A stretch of DNA of 46,408 nucleotides from a virus, in the IMG/VR virus record IMGVR_UViG_3300005253_000334, positions 1-46,408 of that record; one strand, written 5' to 3'. This document shows, one piece after another, positions 3,189 through 37,469 of the stretch. How positions within the stretch are numbered: the stretch's first letter is position 1; each line of letters opens with the position of its first letter. A program made the position numbers and the translations under genes. The notes below the pieces were generated by a model. The model was not told where the DNA came from. It searched no databases and worked only from the letters and a program-made list of their open reading frames with translations.

Positions 3189-3958
3189 ACGCGGTAAAGG
3201 AGCGAGAGATCGAGGCGGTTCAGGCCGCCGAGGCCGGGGTACTCCCGGTCCGCCCAACGATCGTCCCGGACGGGCTGGTAAGGGGCGACGCCGAGGGCCA
3301 CTACCAGAGGAGCCGGAAGCGACTCCTCTATCAGAACAAGCGGCGGTCGAGCTGGCGGACTACGGTCCTGGCCTGGCTCCGGGACCACGTTTGGAAGTCG
3401 ATCCCGCGCTGGTATTACCAGCTCGTGCTCGGCCATGACGTACACGTCAGCACCTACGCCGAGCTGTACGTCCGCCACTTCCACTACGCGCAGCCCGACC
3501 CGTTCACCGGCGAGATCGAGTACCACGGAATCCAGGGCCGCGGCCTAGTCCCGGGCTGGTGGGAGAACGTCGGCCGCGTCTCGCACGGCAAGGTGACGAT
3601 CGCCTTCCGCACGTTCGAGATCGGACAGCTCGTGGCGGAGTCGGCGGAGTACGGCGATTACAAGTTCCAGCGCCCGGGCCTGTCCACGCAGGTCGAGTCG
3701 AACGCCGACACGGCGCTGATAACGGATGCCGGCCTCGAGGCGACAGGGTCGCAGGTCGACGCCGACCCGATCTATCGCAGCGTCGCGACCGTGACGGCCG
3801 ACGTGACGGAGACCTGGGAGGAGCACAGCATCCGTAGTCAGACTGGCGCCGCCGGCGGCACGATGATGGACCGCTCGCTCATCAGCCCGAACGTCTCCGT
3901 CGTGGCGAGCGATACGGTAGAGTTCACTTACGAGCTCACGAAATCCGCTGAGGCTTAG
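3185..3958 (+). CDS. Putative virion structural protein
   Basis: I place the start at TTG 3185, which overlaps the previous stop and sits 6 bases after AAAGGAGG; a GTG at 3167 in the same frame has no such site. The product is about 257 residues. The middle (ELYVRHFHYAQPDPFTGEIEYHG) and the beta-rich C-terminus (SVVASDTVEFTYEL) look like a tail or baseplate structural protein. No enzymatic motif is present. Family not identified. Confidence 0.8.
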   Translation: MNAVKEREIEAVQAAEAGVLPVRPTIVPDGLVRGDAEGHYQRSRKRLLYQNKRRSSWRTTVLAWLRDHVWKSIPRWYYQLVLGHDVHVSTYAELYVRHFHYAQPDPFTGEIEYHGIQGRGLVPGWWENVGRVSHGKVTIAFRTFEIGQLVAESAEYGDYKFQRPGLSTQVESNADTALITDAGLEATGSQVDADPIYRSVATVTADVTETWEEHSIRSQTGAAGGTMMDRSLISPNVSVVASDTVEFTYELTKSAEA

Positions 3959-4000: not shown

Positions 4001-5425
4001 ATGAATCCTGCCGCTGAGGCCCGTGCTAAAGTAAAGGCCACTCATCCCGAGGCGGTCGTTGTTGGGCGGGGCCGCAATTCCATTAAGCACCGCCTCGATG
4101 ACGCGCCGGACGGACGGCAGCGGTTCGCCCTCGACGTGGCCATCGGCCCCCTCCACTACGGGCCTGACAACGACCAGGAGATAGACACCGCTCTCGTCCC
4201 TTCCACAGCCCCGTGGGACTGGGAGATGACGAAGGCGGGGTTCGAGGTGCGGGCGCTATCCGATCTCAGTGCGGGGCAAGTCATCGAATACCTAAGCGGG
4301 TCGGAGTGGGTACGCTTCCAGCCGATGGCGCTGCAATACTCCAACGACCTGAACCAGATACAGCAAATCTCGATGCCCCAATCCGTCGCCGCAGTGGTGG
4401 ACGATGACACATTGACCTGGACGAACGGCTACGGGCCTGGGCGCACCCTCACTTGGCAGGTACAGACAGCTCGGCTGGCGAAGCTGCTGACAATAGACTC
4501 CTTGGTTGACCTGCCTACCATTGACCAGTTCATCCTGGATGGCGGAACCCCCGTCTTGGAGCTGAACCTTATCTTCGCTCACTCCGCCGGGGTGACGCCC
4601 TACGTGAACGGGCAGGAGTGGAAACGGGGCGACCGCGACACTCAGGGCCTCGTGGAGTTCCGTGACGGCGATGGTAAAGTCCTCTGGTGGTTCAACCTAC
4701 CCCGTTCTTGGGACTCCGAAGGTAATGAGCAGCTAGGGACGTTCCGGTTCAAGAAGCAGGGTAACAGCCTGTACGTGACCCACCGTGTGCCCCTGTCGTT
4801 TGTGCAAGGAGCAGTCTACCCGCTTATGGTGGACACAACCATAGACGATCAGGTTGGAGCCGGAGCAGATGACGGTTATTCTACTAGCGCCCCTGCTTTC
4901 GTAGATACCAACACTTTTACAATCTTGGGCCAATCTGCTAACAATATTTTCGATGGGTGGGCGAGATTCACTAATATAAGTGGCCTGTCGGGTGCGACCA
5001 TCGACGTTTCCTATATCAGTCTGTACGGTGCCCAATTTAGTGCAGGGGGTACTACTCAGGAGACCAAAATCTTTGCTGAGGATGCTGAAGCGCCCTCCGC
5101 CCCGACCGACCAATCAAACCATGCGGCGAAGACACGGACGTCGGCGGGGGTTGAATGGGACGGTATTGTTGGCGCTGACGACGTTTTCACTAACAGTGAT
5201 TCCATAAATACGGTTATCCAAGAACTTGCGGACTCCTACGATCCTAGCGCTATCCAAATCCTCCACGATGATGATGGGTCGCCCAACAATGTATGGCAAC
5301 GCTATCGTACCTATGAAGAAGACACAGCCGAGGCCCCCAAGCTCCACATCGAGTTCACGGCGGCGGCGGCCGGTTCGCTGCCAGTGTTCCAGCGACGCAT
5401 GAGACAACTTGAACGGAGGTTTTAG
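4001..5425 (+). CDS. Tail-fibre-like protein with a DNRLRE-type module
   Basis: A 474-residue protein. Residues about 20-110 form an N-terminal module (SIKHRLDDAPDGRQRFALDV) and the middle is beta-rich. The C-terminal part (about 285-455: FDGWARFTNISGLSGATIDV, later APKLHIEFT) matches the pattern of DNRLRE/CBM96-like adhesion modules found in surface-binding proteins. Base composition drops noticeably in AT-rich direction between about 4840 and 5320, in this C-terminal part, which suggests the module was acquired separately. It probably binds a host surface glycan. It follows a 42-base gap after the previous gene. Confidence 0.75.
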   Translation: MNPAAEARAKVKATHPEAVVVGRGRNSIKHRLDDAPDGRQRFALDVAIGPLHYGPDNDQEIDTALVPSTAPWDWEMTKAGFEVRALSDLSAGQVIEYLSGSEWVRFQPMALQYSNDLNQIQQISMPQSVAAVVDDDTLTWTNGYGPGRTLTWQVQTARLAKLLTIDSLVDLPTIDQFILDGGTPVLELNLIFAHSAGVTPYVNGQEWKRGDRDTQGLVEFRDGDGKVLWWFNLPRSWDSEGNEQLGTFRFKKQGNSLYVTHRVPLSFVQGAVYPLMVDTTIDDQVGAGADDGYSTSAPAFVDTNTFTILGQSANNIFDGWARFTNISGLSGATIDVSYISLYGAQFSAGGTTQETKIFAEDAEAPSAPTDQSNHAAKTRTSAGVEWDGIVGADDVFTNSDSINTVIQELADSYDPSAIQILHDDDGSPNNVWQRYRTYEEDTAEAPKLHIEFTAAAAGSLPVFQRRMRQLERRF

Positions 5426-5911
5426 ATGGGCAGAATATACATGGTCCCCTTCACCGCGACGGTCACCGCGGCCGGCGGCGACACCGATCTGTGGGAACTC
5501 ACGGCTGCCGATGATAAGCCGATCCTCCTACGGGGGTTCAGCCTCGGCCAAATCTCGGAGGTAAAAGATGCCGAGGAGGAAGGGCTGCGGATCACCGTCA
5601 AGCGCCTCCTGGCGACCTTCACCAGTGGATCCGGCGGCGTGGCTGGCGTACCCGAGTCGCCGGATTCCGCTCAGGCGGCGCAGGGCTTCGCCTCAGAGAC
5701 GAACAACGCAACCGTCGCCACGACCTCCGGCGCGACCGATATCCTCGACGAGGTCGGCTGGAACAACCGTAACACTCCATTCGAGCGATGGTATCCCGAC
5801 CGGGAGTTTTGCCCGAAGGTGAAGCAGGGCGAGGGGCTCGTCATCCGTTTGGAGACGACCCTCGCTGATGATATGACCTTCGTCGGCAACGCCTGGATCG
5901 AGGAGGAGTAG
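5426..5911 (+). CDS. Putative tail/fibre structural protein
   Basis: A 161-residue protein that begins directly after the previous stop, with GGAGG just inside the upstream gene. The sequence is beta-rich with an acidic C-terminus (MTFVGNAWIEEE). The middle, WNNRNTPFERWYPDREFCPK, looks like a conserved surface loop. No enzymatic motif. The same coupled layout as its neighbours makes a virion part likely, but the exact role is unknown. Confidence 0.8.
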   Translation: MGRIYMVPFTATVTAAGGDTDLWELTAADDKPILLRGFSLGQISEVKDAEEEGLRITVKRLLATFTSGSGGVAGVPESPDSAQAAQGFASETNNATVATTSGATDILDEVGWNNRNTPFERWYPDREFCPKVKQGEGLVIRLETTLADDMTFVGNAWIEEE

Positions 5912-5914
5912 CCC

Positions 5915-6649
5915 TTGCCGCTCGTCTATCGGCGGCCGCCGTTCCGGAGGGCGGTACGCCTCAACCGCTGCTCGCCTATCGGCACCTTCACTGCGCCGGC
6001 GGCCGGCCCTACCTTCTCGCGCTCGCTCGCTGGCAATCAGCCCGCCGGCACTGGAACGCTGGCGCGCAAGGAGCAGGCCCTCCGCACACTAGCGGGTAAT
6101 CAGCCCAACCCGACGGGGACCCTCGTCCGCATTGAGAAGGCGCTCCGGACGCTGGCGGGTAATCAGCCAGCGGCTACGGGGATCCTCACGCGGATCGAGA
6201 AGGCCCTTCGGTCCCTCGCTGGCAATCAACCCAATGCGACCGGGACGCTGGCAGCCGTGCTCAAGGTCATTCGCAACGTCGCAGGGAACCAGCCGGCCGG
6301 GACGGGGACGCTCGTCAGGATTGAGAAGGCCGTCCGTACCCTAGCAGGAAGCCAGCCGTCGGCGACGGGGACGTTGGCGCGGGTCGAAAAGGCCGTGCGC
6401 GCCATGGCGGGATCTCAACCGGCGGGAACCGGGACGCTGGTCCGGATAGAGAAGGCGCTGCGGACGCTCGCCGGTAATCAACCCTTAGCTACCGGCACCC
6501 TGGCGGCGGTCAAGGGCGGCGCCGCCTTCTCGGCGATGCGGATAGATACCGGCACGGTCTCACTCCTCGAGAAGGATGACGCATCGGTCACAATCGGAGA
6601 GAGCGACGATTCAGTCAGTATACGGAAGACGGAAGATGCTACAGTGTAG
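5915..6649 (+). CDS. Repeat protein with eight LAGNQP..TGTL units
   Basis: A 244-residue protein starting at TTG 5915, six bases after AGGAGGAG. After a basic N-terminus (residues 1-37) come eight tandem 21-residue repeats of the form LAGNQPxxTGTLxRIEKALRT, to about residue 205. The C-terminus has short acidic repeats (DDASVTIGESDDSVSIRKTEDATV). The regular repeat suggests an elongated or solenoid fibre element; the number of repeats could change by recombination. Role inferred from position among tail genes. Confidence 0.85.
   Translation: MPLVYRRPPFRRAVRLNRCSPIGTFTAPAAGPTFSRSLAGNQPAGTGTLARKEQALRTLAGNQPNPTGTLVRIEKALRTLAGNQPAATGILTRIEKALRSLAGNQPNATGTLAAVLKVIRNVAGNQPAGTGTLVRIEKAVRTLAGSQPSATGTLARVEKAVRAMAGSQPAGTGTLVRIEKALRTLAGNQPLATGTLAAVKGGAAFSAMRIDTGTVSLLEKDDASVTIGESDDSVSIRKTEDATV
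6026..6529 (+). repeat. Eight 63-bp tandem repeats inside a fibre-like gene
   Basis: Eight imperfect in-frame copies of a 63-bp unit, each beginning near ctsgcrggyaatcagcc. Copies 4 and 8 differ most in their second half (AAVLKVIRN and AAVKGGAAF instead of RIEKALRT). Codon-level divergence between units is high although the peptide is kept, which indicates selection on the protein and not a recent expansion. Confidence 0.85.
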
Positions 6650-6661
6650 GAGGTTGTAGGG

Positions 6662-7048
6662 ATGCCAACGTTAGACGCCAGAATTGACAACGTAGTCGCC
6701 GGTGACGATATCCAGATCACGCGGACGATAACATTAGTGCCAGCGGCCGAGACGCTGACCGACGGCTGGCTAACGGTGAAGGAACACCCGGACGATCTCG
6801 ACGCCGATGCGATCATCGACAAGCAGATCACGCCTACAGACGCGCCCGGGACTGGGCAGATCACGGACACCGGCGCCGATGGCACAGGGGCGGTCCGCTT
6901 CGATCTCGCTGACACGGACACGTCGAAGCTAACGCCTGGGCGGGACTACTACTGGGATATACAGGTCAAAACGAGCGGCGGCGCCATCTACACGCCAACG
7001 GCCGGAAAGATCCGCACGGTCCAGGGTAGGACGGCGGATATAGCCTAG
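6662..7048 (+). CDS. Putative baseplate/tail structural protein
   Basis: A 128-residue protein preceded by GTAGGAGG. It is a beta-sandwich-like sequence: DARIDNVVAGDDIQITRTIT, an acidic middle, and GRDYYWDIQVKTSGGAIYTPTAGKIRTVQG. This layout is common in small phage proteins that cap or attach fibres (BppU-N-like), but the assignment is only by pattern. It is the last plus-strand gene before a change of strand. Confidence 0.75.
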   Translation: MPTLDARIDNVVAGDDIQITRTITLVPAAETLTDGWLTVKEHPDDLDADAIIDKQITPTDAPGTGQITDTGADGTGAVRFDLADTDTSKLTPGRDYYWDIQVKTSGGAIYTPTAGKIRTVQGRTADIA

Positions 7049-7083: not shown

Positions 7084-7899
7084 CTAGCTAATCTTTGTCC
7101 ACGTTCCGCAGTCGTTCGCCTCAAACCCCACGTCGCTGGCTGCGATCGTTACGATATGCTGTCCGCCTCCGATATCGTTTGCAATGATGTTGTCTATGTC
7201 GTTGCTGAAGCTGCTAAGGCGAGCCCAGTAGCAGGAATCACTTGACCCGTCGCTGCGCCATGTTCCTGCGGCGATATCTGCACCTACTTGGTACATCCCG
7301 TCACCGAACGGGGCCGTAGGATCACTTGTGACGGGTGATAGATTCTGCGTCCACGTGCCGCAACCGTTTGACGTGAAGCCTATGTCGCTCGGGCTGATCG
7401 TTACGATCTGCCTGATCTCGGTGGCCCCGTTGGCTATGATGTCGTCGAGATCCCCACTGAAGCCGCTGAGACGCTCCCAGTAACAGAAGGACGACGCGGC
7501 GGAGGTATATGTGCCGGCTGCTATATCCTCTCCGACTACGAATGTTCCGTCCCCAATGGTAGTCGATGGGCCGACTGGCGCAGGCGTCGGGGCGGTTGTG
7601 GGCTCAGGCGTCGGGGTTGGCTCCGGCGTGGGTGACGACTCTGCGGTGTCGCCTGGCGTGGGCGTGGCTTCCGGTGATTCCGAAGGTTCTGCTGTGATCT
7701 CAGACTCCGGTGTACTCTGATCTTGGACAGTCGTTCCGGAGTCACCATCCCCGCCACCGGCTGCTATCGCGATGATGATGATGAGCCATAGGGAGCCTGT
7801 CCCTACCGCTGCGGCGATACGCCAGCCGGGTACAGGGATCACTTTGCGCCATAGAGGCAGCAGCACCGACCATTCCAACACTCGGATGATTGCGTTCAT
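7084..7899 (-). CDS. Membrane-anchored surface protein with duplicated Cys domain
   Basis: The start is ATG 7899, behind AAGGAGGAG; an upstream in-frame start would add 17 basic residues. The product has 271 residues: one membrane segment at about 28-47 (WRIAAAVGTGSLWLIIIIAI), a Pro/Thr/Glu linker at 60-112, then two copies of one domain at about 117-185 and 199-269. Each copy has the pattern GxxxVGxDIAAGT, CYWxRLSxFS, IIAN, VTIxxSDxGF, CGTW, with two cysteines that could pair. The domain occurs in exported bacterial proteins. It sits next to the integrase on the minus strand, a usual place for lysogenic-conversion genes. It may act at the host surface, for example in exclusion, but this is inference. 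Confidence 0.85.
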   Translation of the reverse strand: MNAIIRVLEWSVLLPLWRKVIPVPGWRIAAAVGTGSLWLIIIIAIAAGGGDGDSGTTVQDQSTPESEITAEPSESPEATPTPGDTAESSPTPEPTPTPEPTTAPTPAPVGPSTTIGDGTFVVGEDIAAGTYTSAASSFCYWERLSGFSGDLDDIIANGATEIRQIVTISPSDIGFTSNGCGTWTQNLSPVTSDPTAPFGDGMYQVGADIAAGTWRSDGSSDSCYWARLSSFSNDIDNIIANDIGGGQHIVTIAASDVGFEANDCGTWTKIS

Positions 7900-7953
7900 A
7901 GTCTCCTCCTTCTGAGCCAGCATTCTAGCCCGTCGCCGCGAACGGCGCAAACT

Positions 7954-8514
7954 CTACCCCAATCTCTCGACGGCATCCCTGAGCCTTTCTGGACAGGTGT
8001 GAAGATAGATCGACGTGATGGCGAGGCTGCTGTGTCTCATGAGGTCCCGAACCTCAATCAAGTCTACCCCACGCCTCAATAAGTGAGTGGCGAACGAGTG
8101 CCTTAGAGCATGGGGGTACGCCTTACGCCGGGGAATCCCCGCCTTCTCACACGCCTCCACTAGCCAGTAACGCGCCTGGCGGTCAACGATGTGCGTCTTG
8201 TAGCCAGGGAACAGCCATCCCGTACTCCCGAGCTGTGTGAACTTCAGGAGAGCGCATCGCAGCGCCGCGTTCAGCGGTAGCAGCGCTTCCTTATCCCCCT
8301 TGCCGATCACCCTCAGTATTGAGGGCTCCCCATTTCGCCACGTAATGTCTTCATGTCTCACCCTCGCTGCTTCTGACGATCTGAGGCCGGCGCGGGCACA
8401 GAGCAAGAAGTAGAGTCGGTGTCGTGGCGGCGAGACGGCGAGGAGGGCGGTGAGCTGCTCCGGCTCCAGGTAAGTAGGGAGCCTAAATTGTCGATGTTCT
8501 CGCCGAGTTGCCAT
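7954..8514 (-). CDS. int: Tyrosine recombinase (integrase), catalytic domain only
   Basis: A 186-residue tyrosine recombinase with the full catalytic set visible: R45 (ARAGLRSSEAAR), K72 or K75 (GKGDKE), H135-x-x-R138 (HALRHSFATHLL), H161 (MRHSS) and the nucleophile Y170 (SIYLH). It lacks the N-terminal SAM-like core-binding domain and arm-binding domain of usual phage integrases (300-400 residues), resembling short XerC/D-like single-domain recombinases. It is transcribed away from the early genes, next to a membrane protein on the same strand. It should carry out site-specific insertion of phage DNA; the attachment site was not found. Confidence 0.92.
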   Translation of the reverse strand: MATRREHRQFRLPTYLEPEQLTALLAVSPPRHRLYFLLCARAGLRSSEAARVRHEDITWRNGEPSILRVIGKGDKEALLPLNAALRCALLKFTQLGSTGWLFPGYKTHIVDRQARYWLVEACEKAGIPRRKAYPHALRHSFATHLLRRGVDLIEVRDLMRHSSLAITSIYLHTCPERLRDAVERLG

Positions 8515-10163: not shown

Positions 10164-11080
10164 CCACCGACAGCAAGGCGCTCGCCAAGCGCGAAACCAC
10201 GATCCTCATCAAGGACACGCCTGGGGCGCAGAAGGCGCTTGTGTCCCGGTTCGGCGACAAGGAGTTCAGCACCGCCCTCACCGTGTCGCACTTCATCGCC
10301 GTCTGCAACACCTACGGCCTCAACCCCTGGATGGGCCAGATCACGCCGTTCCACGGGCGGCCGTACATCCAGCATGACGGCTGGATGAGCCTCATCAACC
10401 GCGAGGCGCCGGGCCAGCTGGTTGGGATCGATGCCCGCCCTGCGACGGACGCCGAGTACAAGCAGTTCAGGGTCGCCGAGTCGGCCTACTTCGCCATCGC
10501 CACCGCGACCCGTCGTTACCCCGGTGGCAATTCGGTCAGCCTGACACGCCGGGCGCTCGTACAGACAAAGGAAGTCGAGGGCGGGCAGGGCTACAAGCCC
10601 ATCGAGATCGAGCCGTGGGAGATGGCGGAGAAGCGGGCCCGGGTCCGCGTGCTCCGGTCGCTGTTCAACGACTGCATGGCGAAGGTGGGTGTCCCCACGC
10701 CGTCTGTTGACACCCAGACGGGCGAGGTCCTGGAGGGGGAGGTAGTTCAGGCTAACGGCACGGACTGGTCGCGGCTGTGGGTCACGGCATCGGAGCGGGG
10801 GATGGAGAAGGCGGACGTCCATGAGCACTTCGGCGTGCCCGCGGACGATGGGGCGTTGAAGGACTACGCGCAGGCCCGTGTGAAGCAGACGGGGAAGCCG
10901 CTGCAGCAGGTCGTGCAGGACATGGCGGACGAAGTGGGCGGGCTGGGTCAGGACGAACCTGCGCCGCCGGACGATGGCCAGCAGCCGGAGCCGGAGGCCG
11001 TGGGCGAGAGGTTCGACCGCGAGCAGGCGGAGGCCGGCATGGCCCAGGGGTCGGAGCCTGCGGACGAGGGGCTGGCGTGA
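10160..11080 (+). CDS. recT: RecT/Red-beta-type single-strand annealing protein
   Basis: I start it at GTG 10160 (GTGA overlap), giving 306 residues. Residues about 30-190 carry the family pattern: FIAVCNTYGLNPWMGQITPF, PYIQHDGWMSLINR and the basic helix WEMAEKRARVRVLRSLFNDC. These proteins anneal complementary single-stranded DNA during phage recombination and replication. Residues about 205-306 are a helical, then acidic Pro/Glu/Asp-rich tail, as in single-strand-binding partners. No cognate 5'-3' exonuclease (RecE/lambda-exo/YqaJ) is visible beside it; the HerA-like ATPase downstream is the nearest DNA-processing enzyme. Confidence 0.85.
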   Translation: MTTDSKALAKRETTILIKDTPGAQKALVSRFGDKEFSTALTVSHFIAVCNTYGLNPWMGQITPFHGRPYIQHDGWMSLINREAPGQLVGIDARPATDAEYKQFRVAESAYFAIATATRRYPGGNSVSLTRRALVQTKEVEGGQGYKPIEIEPWEMAEKRARVRVLRSLFNDCMAKVGVPTPSVDTQTGEVLEGEVVQANGTDWSRLWVTASERGMEKADVHEHFGVPADDGALKDYAQARVKQTGKPLQQVVQDMADEVGGLGQDEPAPPDDGQQPEPEAVGERFDREQAEAGMAQGSEPADEGLA

Positions 11081-11310
11081 GGAAGCGCGCCGCTGGCCTC
11101 TACCGATCCAATCCCGACACGGTCCGTCTACATCAGAAGATCGTACGGCTGCGGCAGGAAGGATTCCTTCAGAAGGAGATCGCGGAGGTGCTGCCGATGA
11201 GCCTATCTCAAGTGCAACACCACCTTTGGGACAACTGCAACTGCAAGAACGGGAGACGGGCGACAGACGCGGCGGCGGGGCCGAGCGGAGCGGCTGACGT
11301 ATCCGGTTAG
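11077..11310 (+). CDS. Small helix-turn-helix protein
   Basis: GTG 11077 overlaps the recT stop (GTGA). In 77 residues there is a helix-turn-helix at about 18-50: IVRLRQEGFLQKEIAEVL then MSLSQVQHHL, as in resolvase- or sigma-region-4-like DNA-binding segments. The C-terminus is Ala/Gly-rich. Probably a small transcription regulator or DNA-binding accessory. Confidence 0.75.
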   Translation: MRKRAAGLYRSNPDTVRLHQKIVRLRQEGFLQKEIAEVLPMSLSQVQHHLWDNCNCKNGRRATDAAAGPSGAADVSG

Positions 11311-11324
11311 CAATAGCGGCGCTG

Positions 11325-11840
11325 GTGCTAGGGCTGGCGCTCATCGGAGGGAACGATGCGAACGATATGGATGGCGACCTTCTTGGGCAGCTCGGCGATG
11401 ACGGGCGTGGCGACGACCGCGATGTTGATCTGGACATCTACCGCGACTCTTGGACTCATGACACTCGGTGGGTTCGTGGTGATGGCGATCTCGGCGCAGG
11501 GGGCGCTCAGGGGCCGCAGGAGCCTGCACGATCAGATGGAGGAGAACCGGACGCACCTACGCCTGAGCCGGGGCCAGCCGCAACGCTGGGCGCGGGACCT
11601 AGCCCATCCGCTCAGGCGGAACGGCCACCAGCCGCGGACGGCGCGGGAGGCCAGGCGGTAGATGTCTGGATCACGTTCTACACCTGCCCGCCCTACTGCG
11701 ATGCCATGTCTAACGGGGCTACTGTTTACGAGGGAGCAGCTGCTTGCGGTGGTGCGTTCCGTCTCGGCCAGCTATTTAGCATCGAGAAGGACCCAACTCT
11801 TCGGACGTACGTGTGTGCTGATCGAGGGCTCGGGGCCTAG
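11325..11840 (+). CDS. RlpA-like/3D-type protein truncated by an in-frame amber codon
   Basis: The product has a Pro/Ala/Glu linker and, from about residue 115, WITFYTCPPYCDAMSNGATV, GAAACGGAFRLGQLF and VCADRGLGA. This is the double-psi beta-barrel layout of RlpA-like or 3D-domain proteins, which act on or bind peptidoglycan. A TAG at 11838 ends the frame inside the domain; the missing part continues in the same frame to 11933. The start is also doubtful: GTG 11325 has no Shine-Dalgarno, and a signal-peptide-like hydrophobic run begins upstream at 11307 with no ATG, GTG or TTG before it. A membrane-protein frame (11356-11661) overlaps the first half. Confidence 0.6.
   Translation: MLGLALIGGNDANDMDGDLLGQLGDDGRGDDRDVDLDIYRDSWTHDTRWVRGDGDLGAGGAQGPQEPARSDGGEPDAPTPEPGPAATLGAGPSPSAQAERPPAADGAGGQAVDVWITFYTCPPYCDAMSNGATVYEGAAACGGAFRLGQLFSIEKDPTLRTYVCADRGLGA
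11356..11661 (+). CDS. Small two-helix membrane protein (overlapping frame)
   Basis: ATG 11356 follows GGAGGG at a good distance. The 101-residue product has two hydrophobic segments at about 7-27 (ATFLGSSAMTGVATTAMLIW) and 29-48 (STATLGLMTLGGFVVMAISA), then a charged stretch (HDQMEENRTH) and an Arg-rich tail. The tail overlaps the linker of the RlpA-like gene in another frame and may be a shadow. It could be a holin-like protein, or, through a -1 frameshift, the membrane anchor of the RlpA-like domain. Confidence 0.5.
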   Translation: MRTIWMATFLGSSAMTGVATTAMLIWTSTATLGLMTLGGFVVMAISAQGALRGRRSLHDQMEENRTHLRLSRGQPQRWARDLAHPLRRNGHQPRTAREARR

Positions 11841-11933
11841 CATTGGGTTGATATCTTTTTCGGCGATGCTGCCAGAGGTCGTGCCTGGATCGCGCAGGTC
11901 GGGAGCTACGGGACGGTGAGGCTGCTGCCGTGA
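11838..11933 (+). other. Orphaned C-terminal coding end of the RlpA-like gene
   Basis: After the amber TAG at 11838-11840 the same frame encodes HWVDIFFGDAARGRAWIAQV and ten more residues, ending at TGA 11931-11933. WVDIFF after DRGL is what the family has at this place. The TGA overlaps the GTG of the next gene (GTGA), exactly the local coupling style, so the original gene clearly ended here. Either a recent nonsense mutation, a sequence error or readthrough explains the stop. Confidence 0.75.
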
Positions 11934-13567
11934 CGACCGCCACCGCCACGCTCACCATAGGCCGCGACGCCGATGGGCAGCCGTTCAGCCTGCCGGCTGA
12001 AGTGCTGACACGCCACATGGCGATCCTCGCCAAGCGAGGTGCGGGCAAGACCTACACCGCCGGCGTCATCGAGGAGGAGTTCGCCAAGGCAGGCCTGCCG
12101 TTCGTCGTCCTGGACCCCGTGGGTGTCCACTACGGTATCCGGTCGGACAAGAAGGGGCGCCGCAGCGCCTACCCTGTCATCGTCTTCGGGGGTGAGCACG
12201 CCGACATCCCCATCGAGCGTCACATGGGCCGGGCCATCGCCCAGGCCGTCGTCGAGGAGAATATCTCCTGCATCGTTGACCTGACGGAGCTATCGAAGGC
12301 GGCGTGGCGACAGTTCGTGGCGGAGTTCTGCCGCGAGTTGTATCAACTGAACCGCACGCCGCGCCACGTCTTCATCGAAGAGGCGACCGAGTTCGTGCCG
12401 CAGACGCGCCGGCCGGAGATGCAGGTGGCGTATGAGGCCGTCGAGCGCCTGGTCAGGATGGGGCGGAACCGCGGTATCGGTTGCACCCTGATCTCGCAGC
12501 GGAGCGCGCAGGTGGCGAAGGATGTTCTGACGCAGATGGACGTCCTGATCGCACTCCGGACCGTCGGCGTCCAGGACCGGAAGGCCTTGCTCGATATGTT
12601 CGAGTCCGTCCTGGAAGAGGACGAGCTGGTCCACCTGGAGGCGTTCAAGCGAGACATCGTGCGGTTGCCAGACGGTACGGCCTGGATCTGGTCACCGGAG
12701 TTCATGAAGACGTTCACGCAGGTTCATATCCGGGAGCGAGAGACGTACCACGCCGGCGCCACGCCCGCCTTCGGCGATGTCAAGGTGGTCCAGGCGCGGC
12801 CCGATGTGAGGGAACTCAAGGCGCGGTTCGCTGCGGCCGCTGAGCCGGAGCCCACACCTAAGGGGACGACCGCGGCTCAGTGCAAGGGGCACGTGGAGCG
12901 CATCGGGCAGTTGGAGGATGCGCTGGTGGCCGCCCAGGCCGAGGTTCAACGATGGAAGGGGGCGGCGGAAGACGTCCGGGCGGAACTCGACCCGCTCCGG
13001 GAGAGCGTGGCGCGCCTTCAGCGGCAGGTGAATGGTGTCGATAGCCTACGGACTGGCCTGCTGGCCCTTCTCGGCGATTCTGCGGACGCTGGTGGCGCTG
13101 TGGCCGCGATCGATGAGGACGCGCTGCTGGAGCGGCTCACGGCCCGTCTCCCGGCCGGGTCCGCGCCGGTCGTCCAGGTGACGCCGCCGGAGGCGCTGCG
13201 GAAACAGTACCTCCAGGTGGCCGCCGACCGACTCATGGCGAAGATACCCGGTGCCGGCGATGGCCGGACCGTCATGGAGCTATTGCTCGGCCAGGAGGTG
13301 TTCTGGTCCATCAATCGCATGTCGAAGGCGCTCACCGGTAACGACAGCGGCGGTACGCGCACTCGCTGGGGAAACGCGGTGAAAGAGTTGGCGACGGTGG
13401 GCCTCGTGGTCAAGGGCGGAAGCGGTCGCTCGGAGTACCGCGCCAACGTGCGCGGCTGTGTGGAGGTGGAGCTGGCGCCGCATGGCGGGACGCCGGAGGA
13501 GATCACGGCCGTCGAGCGGCAGGGGCTCTACCGGCTGGCGTCGGGGATGGGGGAAAAGGAGGCGTAG
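11930..13567 (+). CDS. HerA-like DNA translocase/helicase ATPase
   Basis: A 545-residue P-loop ATPase, GTG start overlapping the upstream frame end (GTGA). Walker A is at residues 35-41 (KRGAGKT), preceded by HMAILA, and Walker B at about 146-151 (HVFIEE, then ATEF). GRNRGIGCTLISQRSAQVAK and the following LIALRT match the sensor region of the HerA/FtsK superfamily. Residues about 285-385 are a coiled-coil insert; the C-terminus (GTRTRWGNAVKELATVGLV) looks like a winged-helix DNA-binding part. HerA proteins are hexameric DNA pumps that work with nucleases in DNA-end resection or in defence systems. Here it follows RecT and precedes methyltransferases; a recombination role is likely but inferred. 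Confidence 0.88.
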   Translation: MTTATATLTIGRDADGQPFSLPAEVLTRHMAILAKRGAGKTYTAGVIEEEFAKAGLPFVVLDPVGVHYGIRSDKKGRRSAYPVIVFGGEHADIPIERHMGRAIAQAVVEENISCIVDLTELSKAAWRQFVAEFCRELYQLNRTPRHVFIEEATEFVPQTRRPEMQVAYEAVERLVRMGRNRGIGCTLISQRSAQVAKDVLTQMDVLIALRTVGVQDRKALLDMFESVLEEDELVHLEAFKRDIVRLPDGTAWIWSPEFMKTFTQVHIRERETYHAGATPAFGDVKVVQARPDVRELKARFAAAAEPEPTPKGTTAAQCKGHVERIGQLEDALVAAQAEVQRWKGAAEDVRAELDPLRESVARLQRQVNGVDSLRTGLLALLGDSADAGGAVAAIDEDALLERLTARLPAGSAPVVQVTPPEALRKQYLQVAADRLMAKIPGAGDGRTVMELLLGQEVFWSINRMSKALTGNDSGGTRTRWGNAVKELATVGLVVKGGSGRSEYRANVRGCVEVELAPHGGTPEEITAVERQGLYRLASGMGEKEA

Positions 13568-22819: not shown

Positions 22820-22990
22820 ATGAGCTGGCTTCAGTCACGGGACAAACCCCGCGACATTCCCGAAACCGTTAGCGACGCCTATTTGGAGACGCCGGACATT
22901 TCGGGTGACATTCCAGAATACCTGAGTAACGCCTACGAGCCGTGTCCGTCTGCGGTGGCTGAGGCGGAGCGGATCGTGAGCAAGCCGTGA
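22820..22990 (+). CDS. Small acidic protein upstream of endolysin
   Basis: ATG 22820 follows GGGAG at 22811-22815; 56 residues. ATG 22787 in the same frame would add a hydrophobic start (MLCWLVILGVY), making a signal-anchored protein, which cannot be excluded. The body is acidic with a repeated pattern DIPETVSDAYLE and DIPEYLSNAYE. The stop overlaps the amidase GTG. Perhaps a lysis accessory. Confidence 0.6.
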   Translation: MSWLQSRDKPRDIPETVSDAYLETPDISGDIPEYLSNAYEPCPSAVAEAERIVSKP

Positions 22991-23703
22991 CGCTCGCCAC
23001 GCGCAGGATCAGCGGCAACAACAGCGGCCTGTACCTCCGCCCCCCGAAGGTCGTCGTTGTGCATAGCACGCGCTCAGGTCGGGCTGACTTCAGTGATGCC
23101 CAGGAGTTAGCGGCAACACTGGCATGGTTCACGAATCCCAACGGAGCATCGGCTCAGTGGGTGTTGTCGGAGACGGAGCGGGTGCGGGTGGTGGAGGACG
23201 CACTGATCGCTTGGCACTCTGCCTACCTGAACGGTAGGTCGTGGGGGATAGAGATGACGCAGCCCACCATCGACCGGCCATATCGTGATGGGCACTACGA
23301 TAACGCCGCCCTTGTGGGTCGGCACTACGTTTCCCTCGGTGTGGCTCCCGTCTGGTTGCCCTTTTGGAACGGAGACGACGCCAGCGGGTTTGTGGCGCAC
23401 CAGGACACGGTTCAGGGCAGGGAATCGGGCAAGACAGACCCAGGGCCATTCGACAGAGTGAGGTTCATCGCATCATTGGAGGACAAGATGACGGACGAAG
23501 AGTTCCTGAAGCAGTTGAACCGCGTGCTGTCGCGGGCACGGGTAGTTGCGACGTTGGCAGACGGGAAAACGAAGCAGTCAAAATACCATGCGCTGGGTTG
23601 GTGGATTGACCTCCTGCGTCGCCACCATGAGGACGCGGCTAAGCACAGCGCGGGAGAGGCGCACGACCACGAGATACCGGCTGGCCGGACGGGGGAGGCG
23701 TGA
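22987..23703 (+). CDS. N-acetylmuramoyl-L-alanine amidase endolysin (Amidase_2)
   Basis: GTG 22987 (GTGA overlap); 238 residues. Zinc-ligand pattern of the Amidase_2/PGRP fold: H26 (VVVHSTRSG), H138 (GFVAHQD) and D151 in GKTDPGPFD, with K149 as the usual catalytic partner; AWHSAYLNGRSWGIEM gives the second conserved strand. It cleaves the bond between muramic acid and the stem peptide at lysis. Residues 165-238 are a helical C-terminal part (LGWWIDLLRRHHEDAAKHSA), without a known wall-binding repeat. It has no signal peptide, so it needs a holin. Confidence 0.92.
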   Translation: MTLATRRISGNNSGLYLRPPKVVVVHSTRSGRADFSDAQELAATLAWFTNPNGASAQWVLSETERVRVVEDALIAWHSAYLNGRSWGIEMTQPTIDRPYRDGHYDNAALVGRHYVSLGVAPVWLPFWNGDDASGFVAHQDTVQGRESGKTDPGPFDRVRFIASLEDKMTDEEFLKQLNRVLSRARVVATLADGKTKQSKYHALGWWIDLLRRHHEDAAKHSAGEAHDHEIPAGRTGEA

Positions 23704-29651: not shown

Positions 29652-30920
29652 ATGGTCACTGAAGTAGACATCGCGCTGAACAAGGGCGCGCAGGACGGGT
29701 TTGTCCGCTCTAAAGCCGAGTTTCCCGCCTTCATGGGGGGCCAGGGATCAGGAAAAACGGCGGGCGGGGGCATCAAGTGCTGGTTCTACTCGATGGAACA
29801 CCCTGGCTCTCGCGGGGTCTGGACGGAGCCGGTGGCGGCGATGTTCGCCGAGTCCTGCCTGCCGACGCTCAGGAGCTTCTTCGGCGAGTATGAGGGGGCA
29901 TTCTGGCAAGAGCAGGGGAAAGGTGGCCCCAACCATCGGATTGAGTTCGCAAACGGCTGTCTGTGGATGCTCAAGGCGGCTGAGACGCCTGAGAGGCTGG
30001 TCGGGTTCGAGGTTGCCTGGGCGTTGATGAACGAGGCCGGTTCGACTGAGCATGGCTCACAGGAACAGGCTTACTTGAATCTTGTAGGACGCTTGCGGCA
30101 AAAAGGCTATCCCCACTGGTTGGGGGTCGCCACCACCCCCTCTGGGTACAACTGGCTGTGGAGAGAGTGGGTTGATTCCCCCACGGCGAAGGAGACCGGA
30201 CATATTCTGTTTCACGGCTCCACTTTCGAGAACAAGGCGAATTTACCCGACGGCTATATCGAAAGGATGGCCCAGACCTACATCGAGGGGACTCCGATGT
30301 ACCGCCAGTACGTCCTGGGGGAGTTCGTCCAGATGGAAGGGCTGGTTTTGGGCAACTTCGATCCCAACAAACATATAGCGCCCTGGCCCGATACTTTGTT
30401 CGTCAGAAAGCTAGCGGGGGTGGACTTCGGCGTTCAGTCGCCGACCGCGATTGTGGAGTGCGCCGTTACGCAAAGCGGCCACAAGTATCTGCGGGAGTGG
30501 CTGTACAAACGAGACTGCGACGATGAGACGTTCGTGAAGGCGTGTCGAGACGCGATGGATGGCGGAGTGACAAAGTTCATCTGCGACCCATCGGGGAAAG
30601 AAAGAATCGAGTGGATGGTGAGAAATGGCATTCCCGCCAAAAAGGCCCCCTCTAACCGCATCGAACAACGAGTGAAGGCGTGGTTGACCCCGTTGAGCCA
30701 GGGGATGCTGACCATCTGTGACGAGTCTCAATTCCTCATCCGTGAAGTTATGGGGTTGTCCTGGGCCAAACGAAGAGGTAGAGAGTTGGAGACGGACAAG
30801 TTCGACATCAACACTCCCGACCACGCCTTCGACGCGGGCGCGGACGTCCTTCAGGAGATTGGGATTCTCCCGCCTGACTACTCCTACCGTCCCCAAATTG
30901 TGGAATCGGGCTGGAACTAA
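29652..30920 (+). CDS. terL: Terminase large subunit
   Basis: I start at ATG 29652 (422 residues); the open frame reaches further left but begins with non-conserved sequence. Walker A GGQGSGKT at 29-36, Walker B VAWALMNEA at 121-129, and the RNase-H-fold nuclease acidic residues D258 (GVDFG), D312 (FICDPSG) and D390/D394 (DHAFDA). ATP-driven packaging motor and DNA-cutting enzyme; acts on the portal vertex of the procapsid. The stop overlaps the portal gene (TAATG). Confidence 0.93.
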   Translation: MVTEVDIALNKGAQDGFVRSKAEFPAFMGGQGSGKTAGGGIKCWFYSMEHPGSRGVWTEPVAAMFAESCLPTLRSFFGEYEGAFWQEQGKGGPNHRIEFANGCLWMLKAAETPERLVGFEVAWALMNEAGSTEHGSQEQAYLNLVGRLRQKGYPHWLGVATTPSGYNWLWREWVDSPTAKETGHILFHGSTFENKANLPDGYIERMAQTYIEGTPMYRQYVLGEFVQMEGLVLGNFDPNKHIAPWPDTLFVRKLAGVDFGVQSPTAIVECAVTQSGHKYLREWLYKRDCDDETFVKACRDAMDGGVTKFICDPSGKERIEWMVRNGIPAKKAPSNRIEQRVKAWLTPLSQGMLTICDESQFLIREVMGLSWAKRRGRELETDKFDINTPDHAFDAGADVLQEIGILPPDYSYRPQIVESGWN

Positions 30921-32734
30921 TGCTGTCTGCACGAGAGATAGACGAACTCGCGGAGCACCAAAGGAGGACTTTTTCCCACCAGCGAGATGACGACATCTTC
31001 GATAAGGACATCATCCGCCAGAGACACATCATCGACGCCCAGAAGGACAAGAAGCTCCAGGTCAGGCCCGTGGGCACGGGCTACGGGAAACTCGTTACGG
31101 CCCAGAACAGGTCATACCTCTCCGCCGCGCCGTTCATCGCCTACACCGCCCCTAGGGACACGTTAAAGGCGTACGCCGAGGAGTTGGAGGCCGCTACCCA
31201 GGAGATATGGAAATTGTCGGGGGCGTGGCTGGCCTGGCTGAGGTCTATCCGTGATGTCGTGGATGTGGGGCGGGGGTGGCTGCTGATTCATTCTCTCCCC
31301 AAGCTCTGGAAGGGGCTGGATTTCCAGCAAGGGGAAGAGGAGTCTGATAAGGAGTTCACGGACAGGCTGAACGAATTAAAGCTGGACAATTTTCCGGTCA
31401 TCGCGCAACACGTCGATGTCCGCGACACCTGGCCCACCTTTACCCTGAAAAGGGAGCTAGATCAGGTGGTGGAACTTAGGGAGATGACCGCCCGACAGCT
31501 TGAAGCAGCCTACAACTCCAGGTTTGGCCTGGACAAGGACACCGACAGGGCGAAGGTCATCGTCTACGCTGACCACACTCACATGCGTACCGTCATCGCC
31601 AAGCACGGCGGGATCGCGGGGTTTGGCAGCACTCCCGCTCAGGAAGCGCTAGAGCCCTGGGAGCACGGGATGAAGATGAACCCCTACGTGCTGATGGAGG
31701 CCCCACCCTTGTCAGAGAACGACGAGGGGGTCGTGTGGGAGGGCTCGGTGGCCGCGCTCAGGCATCTAATCCCTGAGATGGATGGTGCGCTCACTGACAT
31801 AAGACACAGCGGGAGGAAATCTGCCCGCGCCCAGCGGGTCTTCAAGCTAAACCTTACTGACCGTCGCCAGGACAGCCCTAATGCCAAGTCGAACGCCGAT
31901 CTCATCACGATCACTCCTGAGGGCGATATAGTGCTGAATCTGGATGAGGGAATAGACCTTCTAGGCGCGGCGCAGGCCAACCCCGATAACACGGGTTTCT
32001 TGGGGATCGCCCGTTCCTTCACCCAGGAGAACGCCATCCGGCCCTCACTGTTAGGGCTTTCGGAGAACGCCAGCGAGTCGGGGATTGAATTCAACACCAA
32101 GTCGCAGATAGCCCAGAACGACTTTGGCCCCGCGATAGACTTCCTCTCCGACGCGGCTGAGAACGTCGCCAGGCATTTTATCGCTGGTCTCATCTCTTTC
32201 TCCGAGACGTTCAAGGACATCGGCTTAGAAGACGACAAGATACCGCTTTCCTTCGTCAACTCGAAAGGCATTTCCCAGAAAACCGACCTCAAAGCCTCCG
32301 ACCTGAAGGGGTGGGATAAGAGATTACAGGCCAAGATTGAGGCGCAAATCCCCGTGAACCGCAACCAGCAGATCGTGACAGCTCGACTCGCAGCCGACCC
32401 CGTGTCGGGCATCATGTCACTGGAGACGGCGATGGAACTCTATACCCCCATCGCCAACCCGTTAGAGGAGATGCGCAAGCGCGACCTGGACAAGATTAGG
32501 GCGGCACTGGTTAACCAGAGGGTTCAGGCAGCGGAGCAAGTCGCGTTCCAGATCGCCTCGGCCCCCGCCAATTCCGACATTCTCGCCCAAGACTTCGCGG
32601 CTCTGCCCGAAAGCCAGAAGCGGGCTGTGCAGATGGCCGCCCAGACTCAGGGGCAGACCGTTCCCGAAGCTAGAGGCGAGGCTAACACCGCTCGAGAGGG
32701 TATGACGCAAGTAGCAGGGATACCCAATGCCTGA
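30920..32734 (+). CDS. Portal protein
   Basis: ATG 30920 (TAATG overlap); 604 residues. Position directly after the terminase, size and the all-alpha/beta body (QNRSYLSAAPFIAYTAPRDT, NAIRPSLLGLSENASESGIE, NKSQIAQNDFGPAIDFLSDA-type segments) fit a portal of the larger class. Residues 370-430 carry the EFNTKSQIAQ/NDFGPAIDFL helices characteristic of portal stems. It forms the dodecameric DNA channel. The C-terminus (about 560-604) is Gln/Ala-rich. Confidence 0.85.
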   Translation: MLSAREIDELAEHQRRTFSHQRDDDIFDKDIIRQRHIIDAQKDKKLQVRPVGTGYGKLVTAQNRSYLSAAPFIAYTAPRDTLKAYAEELEAATQEIWKLSGAWLAWLRSIRDVVDVGRGWLLIHSLPKLWKGLDFQQGEEESDKEFTDRLNELKLDNFPVIAQHVDVRDTWPTFTLKRELDQVVELREMTARQLEAAYNSRFGLDKDTDRAKVIVYADHTHMRTVIAKHGGIAGFGSTPAQEALEPWEHGMKMNPYVLMEAPPLSENDEGVVWEGSVAALRHLIPEMDGALTDIRHSGRKSARAQRVFKLNLTDRRQDSPNAKSNADLITITPEGDIVLNLDEGIDLLGAAQANPDNTGFLGIARSFTQENAIRPSLLGLSENASESGIEFNTKSQIAQNDFGPAIDFLSDAAENVARHFIAGLISFSETFKDIGLEDDKIPLSFVNSKGISQKTDLKASDLKGWDKRLQAKIEAQIPVNRNQQIVTARLAADPVSGIMSLETAMELYTPIANPLEEMRKRDLDKIRAALVNQRVQAAEQVAFQIASAPANSDILAQDFAALPESQKRAVQMAAQTQGQTVPEARGEANTAREGMTQVAGIPNA

Positions 32735-33002: not shown

Positions 33003-36000
33003 ATGGCCTTCATCGGCATCTACGAGACCCCCTCTGCGCGCCTAAACCGGCTTCGCTCTGCCCTTGACTCAACGGCCCAGAGTATGGGGGACACCGTTTC
33101 GCAGGGCGTAGAACTGGAGGCCCGCACGCGGGCGATGGAGGACAGCCTGAGACGGTTTCGTGAGGTGGAGCAGAGGCAGCAACCTGCGCGCCGGACGTTT
33201 GAACCCAGCCCGTCACCCAGCGGCATATTCACGGACAGGCTCACGGAGCAGCCACAGTCCATCGAGCAGTTCCAAACCCGATTCCCTGACGAGCCTGCCC
33301 CTGGCACTGTTCCCCAGCCCACAGTGGGTTTCGAGCGACTCACCGCAGAGGAACAGCAAACCTCTTTCGAGGGCGGATTCCCTGCCAATCTCACTACTCC
33401 CGAACGCAAGGCGCAACACTTGTGGCTCCGTCGCGCTGGCCAACTGACACAGGAGGGACTGCCAGTGCAGGAGGCGCTGGACAGGGCGCAAGTAGAGGTG
33501 GGGCCAACGATAGAAAAGCAGTTTATCCCTGAGACGAGAGGCGGTCTCGCTGGACGGTTCGAGCGGGGGCTGCCGAAGGTTATCGGTGGAATTGGTAAGG
33601 GGATAAGCGCGGTTGACGAAGCTGCATTCCAAGTCAACCAGTTTATCAATGAGCAATTAGGCACTCCGCCAGAACAGCAGCCTCGCCGTGAGGACTTTAG
33701 TGTACTGGGTGGGCGGTTAACTGAAGGGCAGGTTGGAACCCTGCGGACGATCTTGCCTCAGCCCATTGAGGAGCCCGTCATCAGGGAGGCTGAGTTTATC
33801 TCTAGTCCTGCGGGGTTGGCGGCAACGCTGGCATGGCCTGCGTTCGTTCTGAGAGGTGCCGCAGGCGGTGTCGCACTGGCTGGTGCTGGCAGAGCGGCGG
33901 GAGTGTCCGAAGAGGTAGAGATCGGGCTGCAAGTCACGGGCAACATCCTGGCTCCAGGCGCAGGGGTGGTGCCCAACCTGAGCCGCCTCACTGGTGGACT
34001 AAAGGGGCCGCAGGCCACGGCCTACGTGACGAGAATAACTGAGGAAATAACCACAGCGCGTTCGGCGGCGGATGCGCTAAGGAACGCGGGGCTCACATCG
34101 AAGGCTGACGAGCTGGAGCGTTTCGCGCAGGTAGCCGAAGGCTCTCTAGCGAGGGCTGAAGGGCGAGCCTTGGTGTCGGAGGCGACGGGCGATGTAATAG
34201 GTGGGGCCTTCACCCCTACGCAAGCTGATATTGGTGTCTTGCAAACCGTTCGTGCTGCAACCATCGGTGACATCACAGCGCCAGAATTCACCCAAGCGGC
34301 TGTTCGGGCGGACGTTCGCGCTACGGGCGAGACGATTTCCTCTCAAGTGTTGCAACCACGCCCACAAACGGGGCCAGCGATTCTACAGACTCAGTTGCCG
34401 GAAGGTCTAAGAGATGTGGGCCAGCGGCTTACTGTAGAGCAAGGCGGGGGGACGCTAGCTGGCATAGGTGAGGCTAAAGACTTCTTCGGGCGGGCCATTG
34501 ACCCGCTGCTTCCGCAGGGTGGTATCCCTGGGGGTTTCGTGCCTAAACCGAAGGGGATGAAGCCAGGGGCTAAGGTTACGGGGCTCACCCAGGAAGGCGC
34601 ACAGGTTGAGGGCACGCTGATTCAGGTGTCGGGCGAGAAGGCCATCATCCGTGATGCAGCGGGGAACGTCCGCCCCGTAACTGCGCCAGAACTGATTGAG
34701 GGGGCCGAAGGCGCGGGAGTAATTAGCCGTCTGAAAGACATCGGGCGTGACTTCCGTTTTGGCCCCAGCTCTAGGACGGCTGTCCCCTCTCTTGACCCAT
34801 CTGTTCAGAAGTTCGTCAAGGTGCTCAGGACGGCAAAGCCCACGCAGCGCACCCTGAAGGCAGAGCGGGCGGAAGAGTTAGGCAGACGTGCAGCGAGGGG
34901 CCGCGTCCCATTCGAGGCGGAGGCGAGGACGCCAGAAGAGGCGCTGAGAGGGCTGCGAGGTGCCCAGAGGGGCAAACTCCCTGAGCCGCCTGAGTTCGAG
35001 GTGAGGCTGCCATCAGGCGAAAGAGGTGTTGCGGCGGACGCCTTCACGCAAGAGGAAGTGACCAACTTCATCAACATCGCTCGTTTCTCCCCCACGCTCG
35101 ACCGCGAGCTCTTCACCAGGGGCAACATCATTGAGAGCCTGATAGGTTCCCTCGACAAGAAGGGCATCCTGTTTGGTCGGCTCCCGACGCCTGGGGAGTT
35201 GAAGCAGTTAGAGCGTGTCTACGGCGCGGAATTCGCCCGTGAGCTTCAGAAAGTCAGGCCGTTCGGTGAGCGGTTCTGGCGGCTGACGCTGGACGCTCTG
35301 AACATCCCGCGTTCTTTCCTAGCGGCGTTCGACCTCTCGTTCCCGTTTCGGCAAGGCGTGTTCGCGTTTGCGCGACACCCCAAGGAGTTCTTCGGGAATC
35401 TCCCAGCCATGCTCCGCGCCGCTAAGAACCCTGAGTTTGCGGAACAGATGGTGGCCGCGATTAAGAACGACAGGACGTTGATAGAGACCGCCGAGGGGTT
35501 CCGTCCGCTCAACGAATTAATGGAGGATGCTCGCTTATTCTTGCCCGACATCTCAGGCACGGAGGCGTTTGAGGCGAGGGCGGAAGAGTTTCTGTCAACG
35601 TTGGCGCGTCGTATTCCTGGGGTTAAGTTCTCCGAGCGGGGGTTCATCGCCTATGGTGACAAGCTGCGTTCAGACATCTTCCGCAACACTCTTCAGTCCT
35701 GGGCGCGGCAGAGCAAGCCCGCGACCGCCGAGGAGATCGCCGACTTAGGGATTATGCTGAACGTCCTCACGGGCCGAGGGAATCTCCCGCCCGAACTAGC
35801 CAAGAGCCTGTCCTTCGGCTTCTTCGCACCCCGCTTCGCAGCGTCGAGACCGCAACTTTTCCTGGCTGCAACTATCAACAACCTCCCTGGGGCAAGAAAA
35901 GTAACGGGCACGATTTTGGGTGCCCCTGGACAGACAACTAGGGTGGCACGGCTTGCTTCGCAGGAACTCGTGACATCAGTAGGTGCGGGACTCGGAATAC

Positions 36001-37469
36001 TGGCCCTGGTCAAGATGTCCGGCGTGGGGGACGTAGAACTAAATCCACTGTCCAGCGACTTCGGCAAGATCAAGATTGGCAAAACCCGCATCGACTTCTG
36101 GGGCGGTGCGCGGCCCTGGGCAACGGTCATCGCTCGGATGATTACGGGCAAGAGGAAGACAGCGACAGGCTTTATCGTTCCGCAGGATGCAATGAAGGCG
36201 TTGGAGAGATTCGGACGCAGTAAGCTGGCTCCGCCGGCCGCCTTGATTGCGGATGTGCTATACGGCGAGACGGCAGTGGGAGAAGAGATTGGGACAAGGG
36301 GCGACATACTGCGCCGGACACTACCGCTCGCTATACAGGATGTCGCGGATGCGGTCATTCAAGAGAGTACAACGGTGGGACTGCTGTCTACGGCTGCGTT
36401 TCTAGGGGTGGGTTTCCAGACCTACGAAACTCCTAGCGAGAAGAAGAAGCGGGCATTTGAGGAGGCTTTCCCCGACCGGACTTATCAGGCGACACCGGAC
36501 GATAACCGGCTTGTCAGGGGAGCCATCGAAGAAGATAACAACAAAGCCGCGCTGGAGGATGCTTTTCAGCCTTCCCCTGAACAGATGGAGACGGAGGAGA
36601 TCAGGGTTGCACAGGCAACAGAACTGGGCCTGTTTACTCTGGCGCAGGGCGTTGAGATGATGCGGGGGTTAAGCGCAGAGGCGATACTTACGGGAAATAA
36701 CAACGCTGGCCCAGAGTTCGCTGACGTATGGGTGGACTATCTGGACAGGGTTTCCGGCGCGATATTCGAGGCCGTATTCGGTAAGGAGAAAAGAGGTAGT
36801 CCAGAGTATCTTGCGTGGCGGGACATCAAACTACGGCGTGATCCTACAACGCATGAGCCTCTCTGGGATGAGTTCTTCGCAGCGAAGGACGCTGCCCTTG
36901 CGAAGCTCGACCCACGGCTACAAAGGGCGCTCGATCTAGTGGACGCCCCTGGTGATGACCCCGTGTTGCAGAGAGCGGTGGAGGACTTCAACGCGGCTCG
37001 AAAGCAGCGGCGGGAGCTATTCAATATCCCTCGCTGGACTGGCATTGGAGCCAGCGAACAGAAACGAATCGAGGAGATTCACGATCTTGTGGAACGTAAG
37101 CGAACCGAGCTTGCCTTCCAGGGCTTCGCCGACGTTGAGAGTGGCACTATATATCAGCTCGTGGCGAAGGAAAACGGGATTGCGGACGACTTGCTTGCAA
37201 AGGCGTTCTCTCTGCGACCAGGCTCCAACACGGCTAGCTTGCAGCGCAATCCTGAGTTCGACCAGGCGCTTCTCACGGCAACCGACACTCTGTTGCCGTT
37301 CTTCCCCGATATGTTTAGACGGCGCGAAATTCAGAGGGCGATAGGGTCGGGAGCGGAGGTGGGCGAGAGTTTCATCCCCCTAAACTCTCTTGCAGCAGAC
37401 CCCCTTGCGGCGGAGTCTCCCCAGACTCAGGGAAGCTTTATTCCCTTGGAGGCGCTAGCCGCGAGATAG
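33003..37469 (+). CDS. Giant internal virion protein (LPD38/polyvalent-like)
   Basis: ATG 33003 follows the previous TAA directly; 1488 residues, the largest gene here. Segments: Arg/Gln-rich N-terminus; hydrophobic stretch at about 263-292; long Ala/Glu helices; about 758-1000 a part reading WRLTLDALNIPRSFLAAFDL, FRQGVFAFARHPKEF and a hydrophobic segment near 988-1005, which matches the pattern of large phage proteins ejected with DNA (LPD38-type); and a helical C-terminus with duplicate motif SFIPLNSLAADPLAAES and GSFIPLEALAAR. Position after portal fits an internal capsid protein injected into the cell. Enzymatic activity is not apparent. Confidence 0.8.
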   Translation: MAFIGIYETPSARLNRLRSALDSTAQSMGDTVSQGVELEARTRAMEDSLRRFREVEQRQQPARRTFEPSPSPSGIFTDRLTEQPQSIEQFQTRFPDEPAPGTVPQPTVGFERLTAEEQQTSFEGGFPANLTTPERKAQHLWLRRAGQLTQEGLPVQEALDRAQVEVGPTIEKQFIPETRGGLAGRFERGLPKVIGGIGKGISAVDEAAFQVNQFINEQLGTPPEQQPRREDFSVLGGRLTEGQVGTLRTILPQPIEEPVIREAEFISSPAGLAATLAWPAFVLRGAAGGVALAGAGRAAGVSEEVEIGLQVTGNILAPGAGVVPNLSRLTGGLKGPQATAYVTRITEEITTARSAADALRNAGLTSKADELERFAQVAEGSLARAEGRALVSEATGDVIGGAFTPTQADIGVLQTVRAATIGDITAPEFTQAAVRADVRATGETISSQVLQPRPQTGPAILQTQLPEGLRDVGQRLTVEQGGGTLAGIGEAKDFFGRAIDPLLPQGGIPGGFVPKPKGMKPGAKVTGLTQEGAQVEGTLIQVSGEKAIIRDAAGNVRPVTAPELIEGAEGAGVISRLKDIGRDFRFGPSSRTAVPSLDPSVQKFVKVLRTAKPTQRTLKAERAEELGRRAARGRVPFEAEARTPEEALRGLRGAQRGKLPEPPEFEVRLPSGERGVAADAFTQEEVTNFINIARFSPTLDRELFTRGNIIESLIGSLDKKGILFGRLPTPGELKQLERVYGAEFARELQKVRPFGERFWRLTLDALNIPRSFLAAFDLSFPFRQGVFAFARHPKEFFGNLPAMLRAAKNPEFAEQMVAAIKNDRTLIETAEGFRPLNELMEDARLFLPDISGTEAFEARAEEFLSTLARRIPGVKFSERGFIAYGDKLRSDIFRNTLQSWARQSKPATAEEIADLGIMLNVLTGRGNLPPELAKSLSFGFFAPRFAASRPQLFLAATINNLPGARKVTGTILGAPGQTTRVARLASQELVTSVGAGLGILALVKMSGVGDVELNPLSSDFGKIKIGKTRIDFWGGARPWATVIARMITGKRKTATGFIVPQDAMKALERFGRSKLAPPAALIADVLYGETAVGEEIGTRGDILRRTLPLAIQDVADAVIQESTTVGLLSTAAFLGVGFQTYETPSEKKKRAFEEAFPDRTYQATPDDNRLVRGAIEEDNNKAALEDAFQPSPEQMETEEIRVAQATELGLFTLAQGVEMMRGLSAEAILTGNNNAGPEFADVWVDYLDRVSGAIFEAVFGKEKRGSPEYLAWRDIKLRRDPTTHEPLWDEFFAAKDAALAKLDPRLQRALDLVDAPGDDPVLQRAVEDFNAARKQRRELFNIPRWTGIGASEQKRIEEIHDLVERKRTELAFQGFADVESGTIYQLVAKENGIADDLLAKAFSLRPGSNTASLQRNPEFDQALLTATDTLLPFFPDMFRRREIQRAIGSGAEVGESFIPLNSLAADPLAAESPQTQGSFIPLEALAAR

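Follow-up and report, generated by a model that had tools for sequence, protein, structure and literature searches.

The DNA analysed here, referred to as the window, is a virus record of 46,408 bases. Its genes include an integrase, a terminase large subunit, a HerA-like ATPase and methyltransferases, together with a RecT-like ORF (weak, below cut-off), and because these genes are present the virus is most likely a temperate tailed phage. At 11325-11933 on the plus strand, one frame reads ...YVCADRGLGA, amber, HWVDIFFGDAARGRAWIAQVGSYGTVRLLP, stop, i.e. an in-frame TAG at 11838-11840, real in the sequence, is followed by a same-frame continuation. The parts before the amber comprise a signal-like segment, a low-complexity linker and the first two thirds of a domain (from ~11646 onward). 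The frame ends with TGA at 11931-11933, and the GTG start of the next gene lies at 11930. The initial annotation had placed the amber after VCADRGLGA, with the frame running on into HWVDIFF and its terminal TGA overlapping the next gene as GTGA; the frame translation and the coordinates agree with this description. The features discussed below are as follows.

7954-8514, minus strand: integrase
11301-11303, plus strand: ATC opposite the ATG start of the gene in a related viral contig (L004), a lost or rare start (DNA alignment)
11301-11837, plus strand: N-terminal coding part of a phage gene for a secreted 3D/MltA-like protein (L004 protein and DNA alignments, homologue alignment)
11356-11661, plus strand: ORF in a different frame, within the linker part of the 3D-like gene (GC3 0.86; preceded by GGAGGG)
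11838-11840, plus strand: in-frame amber (sense codon in 9/9 homologues)
11841-11933, plus strand: same-frame continuation with the WVDIFF strand and its invariant Asp, a helix, the last strand and TGA
11930-13567, plus strand: next gene, HerA/DUF87-like ATPase with its GTG start inside GTGA (Pfam DUF87 4.7e-11, HerA_C 8.7e-9)
22987-23703: Amidase_2 protein

Homologues across the amber

Homologues were collected stepwise. A scan of viral contigs with the part before the TAG yielded L002 (59% identity over that part), an alignment of the window and L002 yielded L004, and the resulting three-row alignment yielded seven loci in Dehalococcoidia/Chloroflexi metagenome-assembled genomes. The set thus holds nine homologues, two from viral contigs and seven from these genomes (L002, L004 and L008-L014). 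A tblastn search of GenBank phages gave no homologue of the 3D-like gene, and an exact-pattern scan of viral contigs gave no near-identical copy of the locus.

All nine homologues have a sense codon at the amber position and run ~30 residues further to their own stops. When the locus ORFs were compared with the window by tblastn, each of them spanned the amber in a single match, and because these matches run over the TAG unbroken, the frame across it is not a chance ORF. An alignment across the break had been proposed in the initial annotation as one way to judge the amber; it shows nine of nine reading through in sense and 0/9 stopping there. The amber does, as stated earlier, break into a conserved region, namely a domain shared by the window and all nine homologues.

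The ten-sequence alignment has 19 invariant columns, four of which (D69, G78, W81 and G86, in the numbering of the 95-residue domain) fall after the amber; D49, D59 and D69 are invariant in 10/10 sequences. The amber itself lies in a variable, indel-prone loop between D59 and D69, where the homologues have W, N, S and other residues and several rows carry insertions. The chromosomal 3D-like proteins of Dehalococcoidia (L008-L011) share 43-48% identity with the window protein over the domain, and they are full length and without a stop, whereas the window copy carries the amber. One of these loci, L008, adjoins an ORF on a bacterial contig that we take, from its sequence, to be MurE-like. A 3D/MltA-like envelope protein is thus common to Dehalococcoidia chromosomes and their presumed phages.

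Family and fold of the interrupted protein

For the AF2 model of the domain, one residue was put in place of the amber (mean pLDDT 91). The read-through model adopts a predicted double-psi beta-barrel fold as in YuiC and MltA, and the elements that follow the amber are a strand (67-71), a helix (75-85) and a further strand (88-93). The model shows that a stop at the amber would take away two strands and the only helix. A Foldseek search with this model placed YuiC of Bacillus subtilis (PDB 4WLK) at the top, with a modest match (E 2.6e-3, probability 1.00, TM 0.56), and YuiC chains made up four of the five best matches (E 2.6e-3 to 5.7e-3). A PDB search with the family profile returned nothing at E<=1.

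In Pfam, the window domain has no match to 3D (PF06725). Among the homologues, L011 scores above the curated cut-off of 23.8 bits (24.9), and L014, L012 and L010 score under it. We call the window protein 3D-like, and not a 3D member, because it has no Pfam match above the curated cut-off. The initial annotation had named the gene RlpA-like. RlpA and the window protein do share a double-psi beta-barrel type of fold and an extracytoplasmic design, but RlpA has a DPBB_1 domain, and neither the window domain nor eight homologues gave a DPBB_1 or SPOR match in Pfam. Proteins of the 3D-domain/MltA type are the nearest relatives; the earlier label is therefore imprecise, and 3D/MltA-like is the better one.

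Comparison with characterized proteins suggests where the active site would lie. YuiC and Sps of B. subtilis (3D domain, PF06725) share with the window protein the DxG...xD motif pair and the combination of a signal peptide with a short catalytic domain (PMC4499186). They differ from it in several respects: identity is only 17-21%, and the window protein has near-invariant Cys residues, a GATVYEGAAACG segment and, in this copy, an amber ahead of the catalytic-type Asp. In YuiC the catalytic Asp is D162, and in MltA it is D308 (PMC4499186). MltA, a lytic transglycosylase, is a far larger protein than that of the window. In a weak phmmer alignment below significance (E 0.16), DtG...hrDIwF of L011 pairs with DvGGaiKGqhfDIy of MltA, so that D59 and D69 map onto MltA within it. 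From the order of the motif, we read the second Asp as the probable catalytic one. A product ending at the amber would then be missing part of the barrel as well as the catalytic-type Asp, since the invariant Asp and these strands lie downstream. By analogy, the full-length product is a putative peptidoglycan lytic transglycosylase.

TAG as a stop codon in the phage

Could TAG be a sense codon in the phage or in its host? The initial annotation had excluded global recoding on the basis of TAG stops at 3958, 5425, 5911, 7048 and 16738, all of which are real ORF ends. We counted stops by hand in a heuristic set of 37 likely genes (ORFs on the plus strand, 100 aa or longer, whose GC pattern is that of coding frames), in which TAG closes 14/37, TGA 17/37 and TAA 6/37. 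Relatives of the gene at 5426-5911 start at the same ATG, after the TAG at 5425, and have stops upstream of it; most of them end in TAG themselves, namely four 64%-identical loci, L021 and L022. The TAGs at 5425, 6649 and 13567 adjoin a Shine-Dalgarno-like GGAGG and the following ATG or fall between the two. A tRNA search of the 46,408-base window gave no gene. Reassignment of TAG therefore has next to no chance of being correct, and the exclusion of global recoding stands on the frequency of TAG stops, their retention in the relatives of the 5426 gene and the lack of a tRNA. Apart from the amber codon itself, all that would speak for reassignment is that neighbouring genes from 4001 to 7048 run in one frame across TAGs, an arrangement that could mimic recoding. 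The data give no reason for invoking it.

The arrangement at 4001-7048 (+) consists of four successive genes in one frame, parted only by TAG stops (5425, 5911, 6649 and 7048). The long in-frame extensions after these TAGs were considered as a sign of recoding and rejected, because relatives of the 5426 gene are genes of their own that begin and end at matching places.

Start codon and nested ORF

GTG at 11325 is the earliest ATG, GTG or TTG in the frame of the 3D-like gene (ORF list), and a start there would truncate the signal-like segment. By tblastn, residue 1 of the L004 protein aligns to window position 11301 in the same frame, and in the DNA alignment the L004 start ATG CGT CTA GCA ATA GCG stands opposite ATC CGG TTA GCA ATA GCG in the window. 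The gene probably starts upstream of 11325, since homology to the first residue of L004 extends to 11301, a position at which ATC stands in place of ATG in the window. ATC is a rare but permitted start codon. For this reason it is uncertain, though possible from the alignment, that the ATC constitutes a second lesion in the gene. The ATC region is overlapped by the TAG stop of a small HTH-like protein (11077-11309, plus strand, GTG start, weak PHROG HTH match).

Within the linker, the strongest coding signal belongs to the ORF at 11356-11661, with a GC3 of 0.86 vs 0.61 for the 3D-like frame. Its product has a hydrophobic N-terminus, and the ORF is likely a real gene for a small, presumed membrane protein. 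At the equivalent place L004 has two different small ORFs (5726-5884 and 5885-6019). Selection for an open second frame in the linker was not significant, with the frame open in 49% of synonymous shuffles for the window and, for the two ORFs of L004, in 26% and 56%. The nested ORFs of the two phages look unrelated, being hydrophobic in the window and Cys-rich in L004.

Nonsense mutation, base error or readthrough

The amber has the mark of a pseudogene: an in-frame stop, absent from the homologues, removes the conserved core. We consider nonsense disruption of a dispensable phage 3D/MltA/YuiC-type gene the best reading, with a probability of roughly 0.68. Temperate phages commonly carry accessory genes disrupted by nonsense codons. 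In the proposed scheme, the gene would belong to a temperate phage whose hosts are probably Dehalococcoidia (Chloroflexota) and would encode a small, secreted protein with a double-psi beta-barrel of the 3D/MltA/YuiC type, and a nonsense change at 11838 would end translation one strand before the catalytic-type Asp, leaving a truncated product that should be misfolded and inactive. A separate Amidase_2 lysin may be why the phage tolerates the loss; the protein at 22987-23703 could be the main lysin, and the 3D-like gene would then be dispensable. The change is probably recent, because the frame beyond it has stayed open and conserved.

The same conservation, with downstream residues showing no decay, also speaks against a nonsense mutation, as does the fact that the intact frame is a single base away and the exact-pattern scan of viral contigs gave no near-identical record for comparison. 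Alternatively, the TAG could be a base-calling or consensus error of the metagenome contig, with the gene of the virus intact: a single base makes the difference, and the frame on either side is conserved and otherwise intact. Against such an error, eight other genes of the contig with homologues (5426, 9601, 10349, 11987, 14955, 15329, 18207 and 24834) have no sense-strand stop or frame break by tblastn, and matches with stops elsewhere are read as antisense shadows of real genes. In the 3D-like gene the start codon seen in its homologue is missing as well, so that two independent errors would be needed if both were errors. A base error is thus a minority reading, unlikely but well worth keeping in mind, and a true disruption is favoured because the other homologous genes are intact and the start codon is changed as well.

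A further alternative is that regulated or leaky UAG readthrough yields a little full-length protein beside the truncated form. The frame past the TAG is indeed still conserved, and an amber in a loop whose residue and length vary among homologues may tolerate any inserted amino acid; in-frame stops under purifying selection have been reported in bacteria (PMC7918605). However, none of the nine homologues stops at this position, the window encodes no suppressor tRNA, the truncated form lacks core elements of the domain, and no stimulating RNA structure was found after the TAG, where the RNA folds no better than shuffles (z 0.46; 128/200 shuffles fold at least as well). Programmed readthrough thus has no positive support, and readthrough of either kind is improbable. 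A more specific version, in which UAG in an insertion-tolerant loop before the catalytic-type Asp makes leaky readthrough serve the lysogen as a low-level switch for a cell-wall enzyme that could be harmful, is very doubtful; if true, a few per cent of active enzyme would accompany a mostly inactive truncated product. Peptides of HWVDIFFGDAAR..., beyond the amber, are those that readthrough of the gene would give.

Among the three options left by the initial annotation, a nonsense mutation therefore fits best and a base error is possible, whereas regulated readthrough is disfavoured by the homologues, the tRNA search and the RNA folding. The amber most likely reflects either a gene broken in the ordinary way or an error of sequencing, and nothing points to a special mode of decoding. 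What is documented is a nonsense-interrupted phage copy of a 3D/MltA-like gene, with little wider consequence.

Other features of the phage

Several other genes of the window were noted. The ORF at 33003-37469 (+) encodes 1488 aa and has no Pfam or PHROG match; its neighbours of 604 aa (30920-32734) and 528 aa (37744-39330) have no PHROG match. In the tail/structural region, the gene at 5915-6649 (+) encodes a repeat-rich protein with ~8 repeats of the LAGNQPxxTGTLxRIEKALRT type. Adjoining the integrase (7954-8514, minus strand), the gene at 7084-7950 on the same strand encodes a membrane-anchored protein with two domain copies like FVGEDIAAGTYxS...CYWxRLSxF; it matches a PHROG 'moron' family as well as families of unknown function, and is a possible lysogenic conversion gene.
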